A DNA stretch of 44,015 nt from Thiomicrospira sp. (GTDB lineage: Bacteria > Pseudomonadota > Gammaproteobacteria > Thiomicrospirales > Thiomicrospiraceae). Within the stretch, counting starts at the first letter, position 1, and every line of letters begins with the position of its first letter. Positions 6,252 through 38,412 of the stretch are shown here, piece by piece. Below the pieces are notes generated by a model, which saw only the letters and a program-made list of their open reading frames with translations, was not told the DNA's origin and ran no database searches. The position numbers and the translations under genes were made by a program. The stretch covers positions 1 through 44,015 of the forward strand of contig JAUUDE010000060.1 of the NCBI GenBank assembly GCA_030826915.1, in the 5' to 3' direction.

Positions 6252-6551
6252 TTATTTCTTGTCAGATTGGTTTTCTTTTATTTCTGTATTTTGCGGCTTG
6301 TCTTGCGATTTGCACCCGCAGGGTGGAACAGGGTCTACACCACCAGGGTTGCCTGGATGGCAACGACTAATACGTTTAACAGCTAACCAAGAACCTCGTA
6401 AAACCCCATGTTTTTGAATCGCTTCGATTGTGTAGTGGGAACATGTAGGGTAAAAACGACACCTTGGCCCAATTAACGGGCTTATAAATAATTGATAGAA
6501 CCTCACTAAGATAATAATTAGCCACGCAAAGGGATTAGGGATTTTATTCAT
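6252..6551 (-). CDS. yidD: Membrane protein insertion efficiency factor YidD
   Basis: A 99-residue inner-membrane-associated protein thought to assist YidC and Sec insertion. The family pattern is complete: [50 protein letters not shown] and [10 protein letters not shown] chose the ATG at 6549-6551, which gives the standard N-terminus ([10 protein letters not shown]); the longer reading adds residues unlike the family. This start overlaps the stop codon of the upstream EAL remnant by 8 bases, so translation may be coupled to that broken gene. yidD normally sits in rpmH-rnpA-yidD-yidC, so this location is unusual. Confidence 0.93.
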
Positions 6552-7062
6552 GAGTCTGTTTGATTGGAGGCACTGGATTAGTATTGAAGAAATTTGCATT
6601 ATTATTCATTAGCCAATCTTCTAAGTCTTTAACAGGTAGAGGTCTGCTTACGTAATAACCTTGAACAAAATCACATTGCAAGCTTTGTAGGTACTGCAAT
6701 TGTTCAACAGTTTCAACACCTTCGGCAACGACTTGAATATTCAAACTATGAGCTAAGTTTAAAATTGCAGTTGCGATACTGATGTCTTCCTCTTCTGTTG
6801 GAATGCCATCCTGCCATGCATAACCAGGTGAATAAGAGGCGATATAAGCACATACAGGTAAGTTTGGAGTAAGGGCTTTCTTTTGTTCTTCTGCAAACGC
6901 AAGTGAAGTGAGAGAAGATATTAGGCTGATAATAAATAGAGTAAGTTTAGGATGTGGAATTTTAAACAAACACGAAATGCCGTTCAACATAGGTGTTGAT
7001 TGTAATAATGAGTAAAATGATTTAAATCTATTTGCGCGGTAATGCAATGGTAGATTTGGCAT
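6544..7062 (-). pseudogene. Internally deleted sensor-EAL protein remnant
   Basis: An open 172-codon reading frame joining two unrelated ends. Residues about 25-57 form a signal peptide (hydrophobic TLFIISLISSLTSLAFA, then AEEQ). Residues 70-86 (VCAYIASYSPGYAWQDGI) look like the start of a periplasmic substrate-binding-like sensor domain. Residues 90-150 (EEEDISIATAILNLAHSL, then VVAEGVET and CDFVQGYYVSRPLP) are the last third of an EAL phosphodiesterase domain. The membrane segment, any PAS or GGDEF domains and the EAL active site between them are missing, yet the frame stays open. The simplest reading is an in-frame internal deletion at about residues 86-90. A phosphodiesterase lacking the EAL motif and exported by a signal peptide cannot be active. 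Confidence 0.8.
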
Positions 7063-8964: not shown

Positions 8965-10335
8965 GTGACAATGCAGTCAATTAACCCAGCAAATGGAGAG
9001 TTGCTGATTGAGTTTGATACATGGGATGAAGAAACATTAGATTACGCCTTAACTCAAGCAGGTTATATGTTTGATGATTGGTCAAAATTAACTCCGATTG
9101 AAGACCGTTGTACGATGATTAAACGGGTTGCAGAGATCTTAAGGGATGATCTTGAACCACTGGCGGAACTGATTACCATTGAAATGGGCAAAACTTACGC
9201 TGAAGCCCAAGCTGAAATTGAAAAGTGTGCTTGGGTGTGTGATTTTTATGCTGAAAATGGGCCAAAGTATTTGGCAGATGAAGTCATTGAAACGGATGCC
9301 TCTAAAAGCTATGTGGCTTACTTACCTTTGGGTGTTGTTCTTGCTGTTATGCCATGGAATTTCCCATTTTGGCAGGTGTTCCGCTTTGCCGCCCCTGCAT
9401 TGATAGCAGGCAATATTGCTGTGCTTAAACACGCTTCCAATGTTCCTCAGTGTGCTTTGGCTATGGAGGAAGTTTTTCGTAAAGCCGGTTTCCCTGACCA
9501 TATCTTTTCAAACCTAATGATTGGTTCCGATTTGGTAGAAAATGCCATTAGGCATCCAGCCGTTCAAGCCGTAACGCTAACTGGTAGTGAGAATGCAGGT
9601 CGTAAAGTAGCGAGCATTGCCGGTTCTGAACTGAAGAAAACTGTCCTAGAATTAGGTGGTTCAGATGCGTTTATAGTTTTGGAGAGTGCAAATATGAAGC
9701 AGGTCATTGAGGGGGCGGTTGCAGGCCGTTTCCTAAATATGGGACAAAGTTGTATTGCTTCAAAACGTTTTATTGTTGACCAGTTTATTGCAGATGATTT
9801 TGTTGAAAAGTTTAAAGTAGCAATAGAAGAGAAGTTTGTTGCTGGTGATCCAATGGATTCAGAAACCACATTGGCGCCTATGGCTCGCCAAGATTTATTG
9901 GATGAACTACATCAACAAGTGATGAAGTCGGTTGAATTGGGTGCAGTTATTGTGACGGGTGGTTACCAACTAGATCGTCCAGGTTGTTATTATGCACCTA
10001 CGATTTTGACAAATGTTACCAGTAATATGCCTGCTTACAATGAAGAGTTTTTTGGACCTGTCGCCATTGTGATTAAAGCCACAGAACCCGCTCATGCATT
10101 AGGTATTGCTAATGGCGTTGATTTTGGCTTGGGAGGTTCTATCTGGACAGATGACATTGCCACAGCAGAAACGATGGCGAGAGGAATGGAATCAGGAGCC
10201 ACTTTTGTCAATAACATCAGTTTTTCTGACCCTAGAATGCCGTTTGGGGGCGTAAAAAATTCAGGTTACGGTCGTGAATTATCTGAACACGGTATTCGCG
10301 AATTCACCAATATAAAATCTATTTGGATTAAGTAG
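8965..10335 (+). CDS. sad: Succinate-semialdehyde dehydrogenase (Sad/YneI type)
   Basis: A 456-residue aldehyde dehydrogenase, oxidising succinate semialdehyde or a similar short aldehyde with NAD(P). The signatures are MPWNFPFWQ (oxyanion Asn), KHASNVPQCA, TLTGSENAGR, ELGGSDAFIV (general base Glu229), GQSCIASKR (nucleophile Cys263), EEFFGPVA and MPFGGVKNSGYGREL. The length and the H-A-x-N-V and GGSD variants match the E. coli Sad (YneI) branch better than GabD. I chose the GTG at 8965 because AGGAG lies 7 bases upstream; the ATG two codons later would be too far. It is followed after 30 bases by the EI24 gene and may be cotranscribed. Substrate is inferred from family only. Confidence 0.9.
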   Translation: MTMQSINPANGELLIEFDTWDEETLDYALTQAGYMFDDWSKLTPIEDRCTMIKRVAEILRDDLEPLAELITIEMGKTYAEAQAEIEKCAWVCDFYAENGPKYLADEVIETDASKSYVAYLPLGVVLAVMPWNFPFWQVFRFAAPALIAGNIAVLKHASNVPQCALAMEEVFRKAGFPDHIFSNLMIGSDLVENAIRHPAVQAVTLTGSENAGRKVASIAGSELKKTVLELGGSDAFIVLESANMKQVIEGAVAGRFLNMGQSCIASKRFIVDQFIADDFVEKFKVAIEEKFVAGDPMDSETTLAPMARQDLLDELHQQVMKSVELGAVIVTGGYQLDRPGCYYAPTILTNVTSNMPAYNEEFFGPVAIVIKATEPAHALGIANGVDFGLGGSIWTDDIATAETMARGMESGATFVNNISFSDPRMPFGGVKNSGYGRELSEHGIREFTNIKSIWIK

Positions 10336-20999: not shown

Positions 21000-21722
21000 A
21001 TGTCACAAGTTAAAAATGCAGTATTGATTACTGGCGGTGGACAGCGTATTGGGGCTTATTTGGTTCGCCAGTTTATTCAGCAAACAGACTACCCTGTTGT
21101 ATTTACTTATCGAACACCTAGAGCAGAAGTACATGAGTTGGTTTCATTGGGTGCTATAGCAATACAATGTGACTTTACTGCTCAAGAGGCTTTACCAGGC
21201 CTGGTTGAAATCATAAAAGAAAAGGTTGTTAGTATTCGAGCGATTATTCACAATGCTTCATTGTGGTTAAATGACAAACAAGCTCCGCCTTTCTCTGAGG
21301 AATATCGTGCCCTATTTAAAGTGCATGTTGAAGCGCCTATCTTTCTCAATCAAAATTTACATTCATTACTATTGGCATCAAACGATAAATTTAAAGATAT
21401 TATTTCTTTGTCTGATTACAGTGTTAGCCGAGTGACAGATTCACATATTGCTTATTTGTCTAGTAAGTCTGCTTTACAGACAGTCAGTAAGGGATTTGCA
21501 AAGCAATTTGCACCTAATATTAAGGTGAATGATATTGCACCAGCCCTAATTCAGTTTAATCAAAACGATGATGAAGAGTATAAGAAAAAACGTTTAAATC
21601 AATCAGCCATTCCGATTGAACCAGGAGCAGAAGTTATTTGGCAGGCTGTTGATTACTTGATGAACAGCTCTTATACAACGGGGTCTATTTTGCAGTTAGA
21701 TGGTGGTCGTCATCTATTATGA
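21000..21722 (+). CDS. folM: Dihydromonapterin reductase FolM
   Basis: A 240-residue short-chain dehydrogenase that reduces dihydromonapterin (and dihydrofolate weakly) with NADPH. The cofactor loop TGGGQRIG is at residues 11-18, NAS at 85-87, and catalytic Tyr152 and Lys156 lie in HIAYLSSKSAL. It ends with the FolM-specific NDIAPALIQFNQNDDEEY and LQLDGGRHLL. The overall match to E. coli FolM is strong. GAGAAAG precedes the ATG. It is separated from folE2 by about 3.5 kb, so pterin genes cluster loosely here. A CAGGCCTG palindrome lies in its Pro66-Gly-Leu codons. Confidence 0.92.
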   Translation: MSQVKNAVLITGGGQRIGAYLVRQFIQQTDYPVVFTYRTPRAEVHELVSLGAIAIQCDFTAQEALPGLVEIIKEKVVSIRAIIHNASLWLNDKQAPPFSEEYRALFKVHVEAPIFLNQNLHSLLLASNDKFKDIISLSDYSVSRVTDSHIAYLSSKSALQTVSKGFAKQFAPNIKVNDIAPALIQFNQNDDEEYKKKRLNQSAIPIEPGAEVIWQAVDYLMNSSYTTGSILQLDGGRHLL

Positions 21723-21757
21723 GGTCAATAGTGTTTCAGGTTGATTCACATATGATT

Positions 21758-23010
21758 TTAACCAGTATGGCAATATATTTTTACTTGATTACGCCCTAAA
21801 TTTTTAGCTTGATATAGTGCCGTATCCGCAAGCCGTAATAGTTCACCGCTTTCAATCCCTTTGTGGTCTTGTGTACTTGTTATGCCTGCGCTAAATGTCA
21901 CTTTAATGGTGTTTTCTAGGTGTTTTATTGTCATTTCTGAAACATTTTTCTTCAGTTTTTCAATGGAATCATAGGCTGCATCGCTATCACTATTTGGTAG
22001 TAATATTAAAAACTCTTCCCCTCCATACCTAGAAACAATATTGGTTTCGCCTAGATAATATACAAGTGCTTCAGCACATCTTTTAAAACGATATCTCCAC
22101 AATCGTGTCCATAGGTGTCATTTATGTGCTTAAATTTATCTAGATCTAAAATTGCTACCGCGTAATGTTCTTTGCCTTGAAGACTCTTTGTGTGTAATTG
22201 GTTAATTTTCTGTTCAAGTCCACGACGATTTTTTAAACCTGTTAGCGGGTCAGTATTAGAAAGTTTATTGAGCCTTTGATTTGCCTTGCTTAATTTTTTC
22301 GTTTGCTCTTGCACTTCTTTTTCTAAATGTTTTTTGTGATGTTCTCGTTCAAGAAGCGCAGCTTGGACCTCTTTTTTCATTGGTTTGAAAATAAATTGAA
22401 TTTCTAGTGCTAGTGTCAATAAGGTCACAATCCAGAAAAACAACTCCATATATTTTATGGTAGAGGTTCTGGACTCTCCCTCTTTTTGATACTGATTTAC
22501 GATCGTGTTTAAATCAACGAGAAGAGGGTCAAAGTTTTTTGTGATATAAATGTAGTTTGGATTATCAGGTGTCAGTTTTTCTATGGGCGCAGTCAGTAAT
22601 GAATCAATAGACATTATGTACGCGTTGACGCGTTTATTCATTTGTAAATCACCAAAATACATACGGTGTGTTTCAGTTGAATGGTCGGCGGGAATATTAA
22701 GCTCAAGACTTCCTTTAATTAGAGCTAAATGCCCCTTTTTCATTTCATTTACAGTGGCAAGTAATTGACTTTTAATCTTTTGAATATCTTTTTGTAAATT
22801 TGGTGTAACCAATTGCTGGCTAAATAGAGCGGCACGCTGGCTCAGAGCACGCTGCTTACCAGAGGTGTTTACAATAGAGGCGGTTGTTGCATTTTTTTCA
22901 AGTAGAACAACAAAGGTTAAGTAGGTGCTTGTACTTAAAAAAACGATGAAAGTTACGGCGAGTAAGTAGCGATAGGTTATTTTTTGGCTAATGTTGTGGT
23001 TTGAAATCAT
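21758..23010 (-). pseudogene. PilJ-type sensor diguanylate cyclase split by a -1 shift in the GGDEF domain
   Basis: Read through one frame change, this is a 417-residue protein. It has a membrane helix (about 12-36), a periplasmic PilJ/NarX-like helical sensor (NTSGKQRALSQRAALFSQQL), a second helix (about 190-210), a coiled coil and a GGDEF domain. The first frame runs from 23010 to a stop at 22051 and loses homology after GDIVLK. The second frame (to 21758) resumes with RCAEALVYYLGE and RYGGEEFLILLP, so the active site is intact. The junction is TTTTAAAAG: an A may have been lost. T TTA AAA (22081-22087) is also a canonical -1 slippery heptamer, with a small GTGC-TGAA-GCAC hairpin just after it. 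Mutation, sequencing error and programmed frameshifting are all open. The product lacks an RxxD inhibitory site. Confidence 0.85.
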
Positions 23011-23448: not shown

Positions 23449-24567
23449 TTAAAACGGGCAGCCCATTGTTTTAGCATTGTTTTTGACTAAATCTCGTTCT
23501 TTTATATCTTCTTCTGCATTAAATCCGTCACGCTCGTACCAGCCTTGGGTATGTTGCAAAATTAAGTCGGCCAGTGCATCGGCATGATCAGGGCGATCAT
23601 TTAAGCATGTAATGTAGCTAAACTTTTCACCACCTGCTTCTTCAAAGTATTCTCGGTTTTCTTCACCAATTTCTTCAATGGTTTCTAAGCAATCGGCTGA
23701 AAAGCCAGGGCAGATGACTTGAATATCCTTAATTCCATCATTAGGCAAGGCTTTCATGGTGGCATCGGTGTAGGGTTTTATCCACTCCTCTTTACCAAAT
23801 AACGATTGGAAAGTAACACGATATTCCTCTTTAGATAACCCCAGTTCCTCAGCAACCAATCGAGAAGTAACGTGACATTCACAGTGATAAGGGTCGCCGT
23901 TATCTAAGTAGCGCTGAGGTACGCCGTGATAAGACATAACAAGAAGTTGCGGTTTGCCATGAATGGCTTGATGTTCTCTAATGCTATTAGCTAACGCTTT
24001 AATATAACCTGGATGGCGGTGGTACTTATTAATGAAGCGCATCTCTGGCAACCAGCGCCAAGTTTGTAGCTCTGCCGTAACCGCATCAAATGTAGAAGCG
24101 GTCGTTGCCGCAGCGTATTGTGGGTAAAGCGGTAAAACCACAATGCGTTGACAACCTTTGTCTTGTAACTCTTTTAAAGCACTGGCAATGGATGGATTGC
24201 CATAACGCATACCTAAAGCAAATTCCACACGTCCAGAAAAATGCGGACGAACACGTTTGGCTACCGCATTGACTTGTCTTTGAGAAATATTAAGAAGCGG
24301 TGCGCCTTCACCTTCACTGTTCCAAACGGTGGCATAAGCTTCAGCAGACTTAGCTGGACGTGTGTTTAAAATAATACCATTCAAGATTAAACGCCATAAC
24401 CAACGAGCTGGTGGTGGCTCTACAACACGAGGATCCATTAAAAATTCTTTTAAATACGGTTTTAATGCCTCTTTGGTTGGTGCATCTGGAGTTCCTAAAT
24501 TTGTCAGTAAAACGCCAGTTGCGCTGTCAGAGCCGTGAGCAAAGTTTTGAATGCCTTGATAATGCAC
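23449..24567 (-). CDS. hemH: Ferrochelatase
   Basis: A 372-residue enzyme inserting Fe2+ into protoporphyrin IX, the last step of heme synthesis, peripheral to the inner membrane. Family motifs are GVLLTNLGTPDAP, MRYGNPSI, VVLPLYPQYAAATTAS, MSYHGVPQRYL (with the conserved metal-site His), LFGKEEWIKPYTD and VICPGFSADCLETIEEI. The length is typical of gammaproteobacterial HemH. It stands as a single gene. The C-terminus GCPF carries one Cys and does not form an obvious 2Fe-2S cluster motif. Confidence 0.97.
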   Translation of the reverse strand: MHYQGIQNFAHGSDSATGVLLTNLGTPDAPTKEALKPYLKEFLMDPRVVEPPPARWLWRLILNGIILNTRPAKSAEAYATVWNSEGEGAPLLNISQRQVNAVAKRVRPHFSGRVEFALGMRYGNPSIASALKELQDKGCQRIVVLPLYPQYAAATTASTFDAVTAELQTWRWLPEMRFINKYHRHPGYIKALANSIREHQAIHGKPQLLVMSYHGVPQRYLDNGDPYHCECHVTSRLVAEELGLSKEEYRVTFQSLFGKEEWIKPYTDATMKALPNDGIKDIQVICPGFSADCLETIEEIGEENREYFEEAGGEKFSYITCLNDRPDHADALADLILQHTQGWYERDGFNAEEDIKERDLVKNNAKTMGCPF

Positions 24568-24728
24568 AAAAATTCCTTTAATGGATATTAACTAATTGGA
24601 TTGATGCTATTTTAGATTAAAGAGAAAAAATTTGGAAAGGATATACAAAGTAGTCAGAAGAATTAGCCTTTAATCTAATAAATTAGAGAAAGTATAGAAG
24701 TTTAGAGCCTGAGTTTATTTGGTTTGTA

Positions 24729-25051
24729 TTACTTATCTAGCTTGCGTAAAGAAGCCGCTTCTTGACGTAGCATTTTTTGGTCTTTTTTCAGCTGCATTTT
24801 GCACACCCTAAAGTTATTTTTCTTAATGCCTGCTTGAATACACATTTGATAATTTTGGATCGCTTGTGCTCTTTTGAAATGACTTTGAATTTCTAGCGGC
24901 ATTAAGTTTTGCGCTTTGGCCAATAAGGTTGTTTGCTCTTCAATGAGTTTTGGGGCTCACCCATTGGCTTGTCTCGTTAGCACTTGCCGTAGATAAAAAT
25001 ATTGAAGAAAGAAGAGTAGCGCTGGCTTTTAAAAGAGCAAATTTTTTTCAT
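24729..25051 (-). pseudogene. Small secreted protein gene with two frameshifts
   Basis: AAAGGA and an ATG at 25049-25051 start a frame that stops after 24 codons. Correcting one extra A in the 7-A run (25042-25048) gives a textbook signal peptide: MKKFALLKASATLLSSIFLS, then TASA and mature NETSQW. That frame also stops, near 24941. Correcting a second +1 at the 24948-24955 homopolymers joins it to an open frame. This frame (LIEEQTTLLAKAQNLMPLEI... to KLDK) extends to 24729 and is rich in K, Q and A with two Cys. The intact product would be a periplasmic protein of about 106 residues, family unknown. Both breaks lie in homopolymers, so sequencing error is a live alternative. Confidence 0.7.
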
Positions 25052-25262
25052 TATTAATTCCTTTGTAAACGACTGTTTCCATTCAGGTTAAAACAGTTAG
25101 AGTTTTAAAGTGATTATTGCAGCGGCGCCAAAGGTGATTTTTTGCTTAAAATTTTTTGTTTAAATTAGGTCGTTTTATGTAAGTAACTCCTGATTTATTT
25201 CTATCTGTTGAGTTAACCTAAAAAATAATAGGCTTTAACTATGATTGAAATGGTGAAAGCCT

Positions 25263-25268
25263 TATAAT
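25263..25268 (+). promoter_or_regulatory. -10 element of the tRNA-Arg promoter
   Basis: A perfect TATAAT 14 bases before the mature tRNA 5' end. No good -35 is visible at 16-18 bases upstream (the best hexamer, TTGAAA, is only 12 bases away). Confidence 0.5.
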
Positions 25269-25282
25269 ACGGGCTCAATTAT

Positions 25283-25359
25283 GCGTTTGTAGCTCAGCTG
25301 GATAGAGCGCTCCCCTCCGGAGGGAGAGGCCGGGGGTTCGAATCCTCTCAAACGCGCCA
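25283..25359 (+). tRNA. tRNA-Arg (anticodon CCG)
   Basis: 77 bases with an encoded CCA. The acceptor arm is GCGTTTG/CAAACGC and the D stem is GCTC/GAGC. The anticodon stem CTCCC/GGGAG encloses loop CTCCGGA, so the anticodon is CCG (reads CGG, Arg). The variable loop is AGGCC. The T arm GGGGG/CCTCT encloses TTCGAAT. The discriminator base is G. All arms pair. Confidence 0.97.
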
Positions 25360-25382
25360 TTTCTTTGTGTTTTCTAGGGCCT

Positions 25383-37464: not shown

Positions 37465-38412
37465 TTAAGGGTATAAAACAAATTGCATGCACTCTTTTAC
37501 TTCTTGTTTTTGAATTTCTTGTTGCAAGAAGTTTTGATCGGTTCCATCTGGAAATTCAAAATTGATGGCAATGCGTTCTTTGTGGCTGGCGTCGTCATCA
37601 CGTAAGTCAACAACACTTCCACTAAAGTGAATAGATTTGTTACTGCTATCAAAGTATAAATAGACTTCTACTTTTGAATATAGTTCAAAGCGCTTTTGTA
37701 TCAACACGGCAAGTCCACTTGCACTCACATTGGCCTTTTTTTTTGACCACTCTTGCGGGAATTGTTTGATGTAATTGTCATCATTTATTTGACGGTGAAC
37801 GTCTAAGTAGGCTTCCAAAAACTCTGAAAGGTGCAGTATTGCCTGTATTAAGGGGATTTTTGCAAACCTAGGTTGTTGAAATATGGTCATCATCTCGTCA
37901 ATTTTAAAGCCTACTGGAAGGTAAGAATTTACAAAAAAGTTTTTAGGTGTTGAGCGATTAATACTATTTACTAGCTGGCGCAAATAACTTAAATACTTAT
38001 CTTGGATTAACGAGAGGTATTGAAAAGTTTTAGGCGAAGAGGCCTCTATTTTTTTGATTGAGTGAAAGCCTTCTAGTTTCTGGTTTATGCTTAACCAATA
38101 ACTAGACTCTTTTTTGGGGTTCTGCCCATGTTAAATATCTTGAAGGCACTTGCCATAAAACTCAATATCTTCGATGACATCGGTAAAAATTTCAGTTACA
38201 AGGGCACTTTTCTCCTGAATTTTTCTTACTGAACGTATAACAGCAATTTTGCGTGCTTCAATTAAGTTAGTAATCGGTGTAGGAAAGTAGTCTGCACCAG
38301 ATGCGAATATATCACGGTATCTTATGGGGGAACTAGGCTCAATAAAATAGCGTAATCGCATATCTACACGATGAAACCTTCGGGCATTGCCTTTTCTAAA
38401 CCATTTATTCAT
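37465..38412 (-). pseudogene. PilZ-like paralogue broken by a frameshift
   Basis: The first frame (38412 to a TAA at 38131) encodes an N-terminal half with ARRFHRVDMRLRYFIEP, where R11-x-x-x-R15 is the PilZ arginine motif. From about 38136 another frame is open without interruption to 37465: YLTWAEPKKESSYWLSINQK, then SLIQDKYLSYLRQLVNSIN, NVSASGLAVLIQKRFELYSK and FPDGTDQN. Joined by adding one base, the product would be about 315 residues, the same size and layout as the intact paralogue at 36055. The NVSASG motif survives. No classical slippery site is seen at the junction. It is a disabled gene or a sequencing error. It sits 47 bases after feoC. Confidence 0.78.

Follow-up and report, generated by a model that had tools for sequence, protein, structure and literature searches.

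A gene for a diguanylate cyclase in a 44,015-nucleotide stretch of Thiomicrospira DNA (hereafter the window) is interrupted within its catalytic domain by a -1 change of frame that falls on a canonical slippery heptamer. The locus raises the question of whether ribosomes cross this break, by programme or by accident, whether the break is an artefact, or whether the gene has simply been lost. The best reading, which we consider probable, is that this PilJ-GGDEF cyclase was lost by a genuine, recent and unprogrammed one-base frame change, as one of several losses of c-di-GMP genes.

The gene lies on the minus strand. Its N-terminal half (22051..23010) starts with ATG, encodes 319 residues and ends with a TAG codon at 22053-22051; residues 36-109 form a PilJ-type sensor, and Pfam positions 2-66 of the GGDEF domain are encoded in the same frame (frame 0). 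Pfam positions 59-161 are encoded in the -1 frame, in the C-terminal half (21758..22102), together with the active-site motif GG[DE]EF, present as RYGGEEF. The two halves score 70.8 and 72.9 bits against the GGDEF profile (PF00990; cut-off 23.8), and neither frame holds the whole domain. The two open reading frames overlap by 52 bases. Within the overlap lies an in-frame heptamer of the X XXY YYZ form, T TTA AAA (22081..22087), in the codons of V-L-K of the GDxVLK motif: the frames join at GTT TTA AAA, and frame 0 terminates nine codons past the heptamer. The preliminary description had thus placed and characterised the break correctly (22051-22102). The gene has the domain order of PilJ-GGDEF cyclases (PF13675 + PF00990), from which this copy differs by the frame change in the middle of GGDEF.

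Both halves had also been described as keeping their conserved residues, including GGEEF, with no other damage, and this is borne out by comparison with the orthologue in a related genome, G009. Identity to it is 57% over 315 columns for the first half and 56% over 103 columns for the second, the pattern of changes by codon position is nearly the same in both, and no second lesion was seen in the split cyclase. A single break and equal conservation of the halves fit either a recent loss or an assembly fault. A restart at the TTG codon at 22102, giving a separate working protein, was rejected because the resulting frame is devoid of the first third of GGDEF.

G009 and a second relative, G003, are single-contig genomes of the same genus, and in both the cyclase has the same neighbours as in the window: a short-chain reductase gene (21000..21722, plus strand), which we take to be FolM-like, and a ferrochelatase gene (23449..24567, minus strand), presumably HemH-like. 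With gene names assumed in this way, the order in G009 is ferrochelatase, cyclase, FolM, malate:quinone oxidoreductase (MQO), as in the window. The syntenic cyclase of G009 is one unbroken reading frame of 419 residues, 57% identical over the N-terminal half; that of G003, which has the same HemH, FolM and MQO genes beside it, is likewise unbroken and 47% identical. The preference of the preliminary description for a recent small loss is supported by these unbroken syntenic orthologues. As is usual for a pseudogene, an intact orthologue therefore occupies the same locus in relatives; decay subsequent to the first lesion, another mark of pseudogenes, was not found in the split cyclase. In a scan of genome contigs, none of the 80 matching places retained, out of 232, covered query residues before 160, and no orthologue came out of it. 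Between its UmuC-like and ferrochelatase genes, G009 also carries three genes, for a 971-residue GGDEF-EAL protein and for proteins of 220 and 733 residues; a search of the corresponding gap in the window (24568-25382, 815 bases) with G009 proteins gave a best match of only E 0.057.

The heptamer itself invites a regulatory interpretation, in which programmed -1 frameshifting at T TTA AAA would fix how much truncated sensor is made relative to full-length cyclase. The canonical in-frame heptamer at the break, the -1 direction and the unbroken C-terminal half all recall -1 frameshifting of the dnaX type (reviewed in PMC5009743). Unlike the dnaX type, however, the break and its heptamer are not conserved, the orthologues are unbroken and no significant structure lies downstream. 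At the site the window reads GTT TTA AAA, G009 reads GTC TTA AAA AAG and G003 reads GTC TTG CAG CAT. The conserved break and heptamer for which the preliminary description had suggested looking are thus missing from both syntenic orthologues: T TTA AAA is absent from each, and G003 has no slippery heptamer of any kind at V-L-K. That description had further supposed that, if the gene were merely broken, orthologues would carry more A residues and no slippery site. This holds for G009 as far as its unbroken frame and longer A run are concerned, but the run is itself an in-frame heptamer, A AAA AAG; G003 is both unbroken and free of heptamers. The G009 heptamer lies one codon on from the position of the window's (L131, about 10287-10298), and a -1 slip there would reach a stop after 10 codons. 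It counts towards the slipperiness of the motif, and so lends something to a programmed event beside the site, yet its gene is unbroken and any effect would be opposite in direction.

The wider family gives the same picture. A survey of 62 family genomes, among them that of the window, turned up 12 further homologues of the sensor part, 11 of which are open frames of at least 424 residues. The remaining one, a distant homologue of 372 residues in another genus (G057, L016, about 2420-2470), has a -1 break inside GGDEF. It was considered as a sign of a conserved frameshift and rejected: the break lies about a dozen codons further on, in a different run and sequence, and a similar homologue (L017) is unbroken. 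A homologue of the sensor part occurs in just 8 of the 31 other genomes of the genus, so that the gene looks dispensable.

Canonical heptamers are common in this genome. The base rate was taken from its 392 intact genes with a close orthologue in the compared part of G009. There are 104 in-frame copies of T TTA AAA, spread over 86 of the 392 genes, and 314 of the genes contain some in-frame X XXY YYZ; 9.2% of 17-codon windows in these intact genes hold an in-frame slippery heptamer. Within the 32 listed open reading frames of the window there are 79 in-frame heptamers, eight of them in the N-terminal half of the cyclase, the junction one included; this half has another TTTAAAA at codon 259. 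In simulated one-base losses, 4.8% of 6075 A or T runs of at least four were left with an in-frame heptamer, as were 6.6% of 2113 runs of at least five and 13.2% of 710 runs of at least six; for runs of exactly five A, the count was 31 of 882. To find one in frame at a break of this kind is therefore a mild coincidence, with a chance of about 3.5% to 13% depending on the counting method. The motif provides an explanation for the slippery look of the run, since V-L-K of GDxVLK, written in AT-rich codons, reads GTT TTA AAA. Indeed, T TTA AAA is found at the same V-L-K in seven of 120 distinct unbroken GGDEF sites among the loci compared, two of the seven being in this genome, and 10 of the 120 have some in-frame heptamer at V-L-K-x.

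RNA structure downstream provides no further argument for a programmed event. On the minus strand the heptamer (22087-22081) is followed by GAT and then by the hairpin GTGC-TGAA-GCAC (22066..22077). The small hairpin within three bases of the heptamer, pointed out in the preliminary description, is therefore present, but it is weaker than claimed: it has 4 bp and a folding energy of -4.3 kcal/mol. Four stretches downstream of the heptamer fold no better than their shuffles (z -0.12, -0.28, +0.32 and +0.47, pseudoknots left out), and a fifth, spanning the site, has a z of -1.09, with 33 of 200 shuffles as good. A search of Rfam over 21700-22400 gave no match up to E 1. A GGAG stands 7 bases upstream of the heptamer, and Shine-Dalgarno-like stimulators of bacterial -1 frameshifting are spaced about 10 bases upstream; this GGAG could be counted in favour of a programmed site, though its bases belong to the codons that specify Gly and Asp in the motif. 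Taken with a heptamer that is not conserved and is shared by seven of 120 unbroken sites, the lack of a detected stimulatory structure leaves programmed frameshifting as a means of tuning the cyclase unsupported, and we regard it as very improbable.

A less demanding proposal accepts that the gene is broken but has leaky -1 slippage at T TTA AAA supplying a small amount of active cyclase. Heptamers of the T TTA AAA type can slip. Compensatory frameshifting is also treated in the same review, for 'problem' and 'savior' indels (PMC5009743). Mutated cyclase genes of Shigella, moreover, are described in one study as still giving c-di-GMP, which is ascribed there to several internal start codons (PMC11327459). 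In the three Shigella genes concerned, according to the same study, the stop precedes GGDEF and internal starts suffice (PMC11327459). The break in the window lies inside the domain: the C-terminal half of the cyclase by itself misses the beginning of GGDEF, so that no cyclase would be expected from an internal start. The absence of significant structure downstream also weighs against such rescue, which we hold to be improbable. The same low probability attaches to the extended idea that slippage, in a lineage losing c-di-GMP genes, provides full-length enzyme at a low, fixed level and represents an accidental step towards regulation by frameshifting. A useful full-length protein is presumably not made from the split gene.

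It might also be argued that the organism has an unbroken gene and that the consensus errs at the run. The genome is a draft of 99 contigs, 86% complete; runs of A or T are likewise the site of three other breaks relative to G009, on contigs C56, C46 and C10; and both halves of the cyclase are well conserved. Contig ends carrying common 141-base stretches suggest, on the other side, that the data are short reads. When 90 contig termini were compared, with the right end of the window counted as a putative one, three of six terminal matches were exactly 141 bases long and the others 139, 140 and 122. Short-read de Bruijn assemblies share end stretches of this kind, 141 is the longest word that a common short-read metagenome assembler uses, and short reads seldom err in runs of four; the shared ends are accordingly read as those of a short-read de Bruijn assembly. 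The 122-base match, which is exact, joins the left end of the window and contig C35, and no second copy of the right end of the window was found.

The stronger argument against an assembly fault comes from the distribution of damage over the genome. The comparison covers 444 to 446 orthologue pairs and draws on 826 kb of the 1.79 Mb of this genome and on 1.62 Mb of the 2.52 Mb of G009. Six of 446 pairs showed a frame break in this genome, and none of 424 did so in the reverse comparison (p=0.03); without a case on C17, where the reading frame is apparently antisense to the real gene, the figures are five of 445 and none of 424 (p=0.062). Internal stops were counted in this genome only, and only where similarity continued on both flanks of the stop and neither end was closer than 20 residues; the in-frame stops in BLAST matches were, by eye, mostly near gene ends. 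With breaks and internal stops taken together, three of 10 c-di-GMP genes (those with GGDEF, EAL or PilZ, a group picked after the data had been seen and containing the gene under study) are disrupted, against nine of 434 others (p=0.0016). The three are the split cyclase, a cyclase on C56 and a PilZ gene in the window. When the gene under study is removed, the proportions are two of nine and nine of 434 (p=0.018), and among pairs below 80% identity they are two of eight and six of 131 (p=0.068). At the level of domains, broken GGDEF loci number four of 24 here and four of 107 in G009 and G003 together (p=0.037), or five of 24 here if the C56 gene is included (p=0.010); without the gene under study the values are three of 23 against four of 107 (p=0.105), and four of 23 with the C56 gene (p=0.033). 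In this genome, c-di-GMP genes are more often damaged than others. Since sequencing errors are blind to gene class, this excess speaks against an assembly fault.

The losses also differ in kind. At 6547..7062, on the minus strand, a 172-residue fusion remnant joins the start of a gene like a 388-residue gene of G009 to the end of a GGDEF-EAL gene, of which the last 87 residues are left. At this place G009 carries two full genes, of 388 and 934 residues, and about 3.4 kb of G009 sequence between the fused parts, as estimated from the alignment, is missing in the window. The PilZ-domain gene (37468..38412, minus strand) has an in-frame TAA at 38133-38131; its orthologue in G009 is unbroken, 315 residues long and 67% identical. 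Elsewhere in the genome, the second cyclase, on C56 (L250, about 3526), is broken in an A run, a GGDEF-EAL gene on C57 (L133, about 16440) is out of frame, a GGDEF gene on C33 (L134, 4900-5900) has several stops and an HDOD/EAL-like gene on C42 (L237, 1300-2600) contains a TAA. A GGDEF-EAL piece on C86 (L135, 14100-15378) adjoins a transposase tail, and an identical tail is found at the ends of C52 and C40. Two genes named by eye are damaged as well and unbroken in G009: a rhodanese-like gene on C49 with a short garbled segment (L243, 12690-12830) and, on C40, a CZB-like gene interrupted by an internal TAA (L231, 8728). The fusion remnant, the C33 gene with its stops and the C86 piece beside the transposase tail go beyond homopolymer error, and among the neighbouring losses a stop codon, a large deletion and a transposase junction are unlike one another. 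With the excess among c-di-GMP genes, this makes an assembly fault unlikely, if less so than either form of slippage, and the change in the cyclase would belong to the organism.

Loss of the gene by a genuine frame change thus remains the preferred reading. Most likely, the slip of a single base within a short T4A4 run has removed the catalytic half. Translation would yield mainly a membrane sensor whose GGDEF domain is truncated and lacks GGEEF, presumably an inactive protein. Judged from the pattern of damage in the sequence, relaxed selection on the c-di-GMP network would be the likely cause of loss in this lineage, and it would explain damage of different kinds in several such genes. A parallel is provided by Shigella flexneri, which, according to the study concerned, has lost several GGDEF genes through stops, frameshifts, deletions and an insertion sequence (PMC11327459). 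The likeness lies in a lineage that sheds several GGDEF genes whose intact homologues are kept by its relatives.

No paper treating frameshifting together with a diguanylate cyclase was found in the open-access literature searched, and as far as that literature goes, frameshift rescue of the enzyme, if true, would be new for this family. The site also illustrates how, in an AT-rich genome, the codons for a conserved VLK motif spell out a textbook slippery heptamer, which is readily mistaken for regulation. With damaged c-di-GMP genes and 24 GGDEF loci in an 86% complete draft, against 43 in G009 and 64 in G003, this lineage lends itself to study of how a signalling network is lost.
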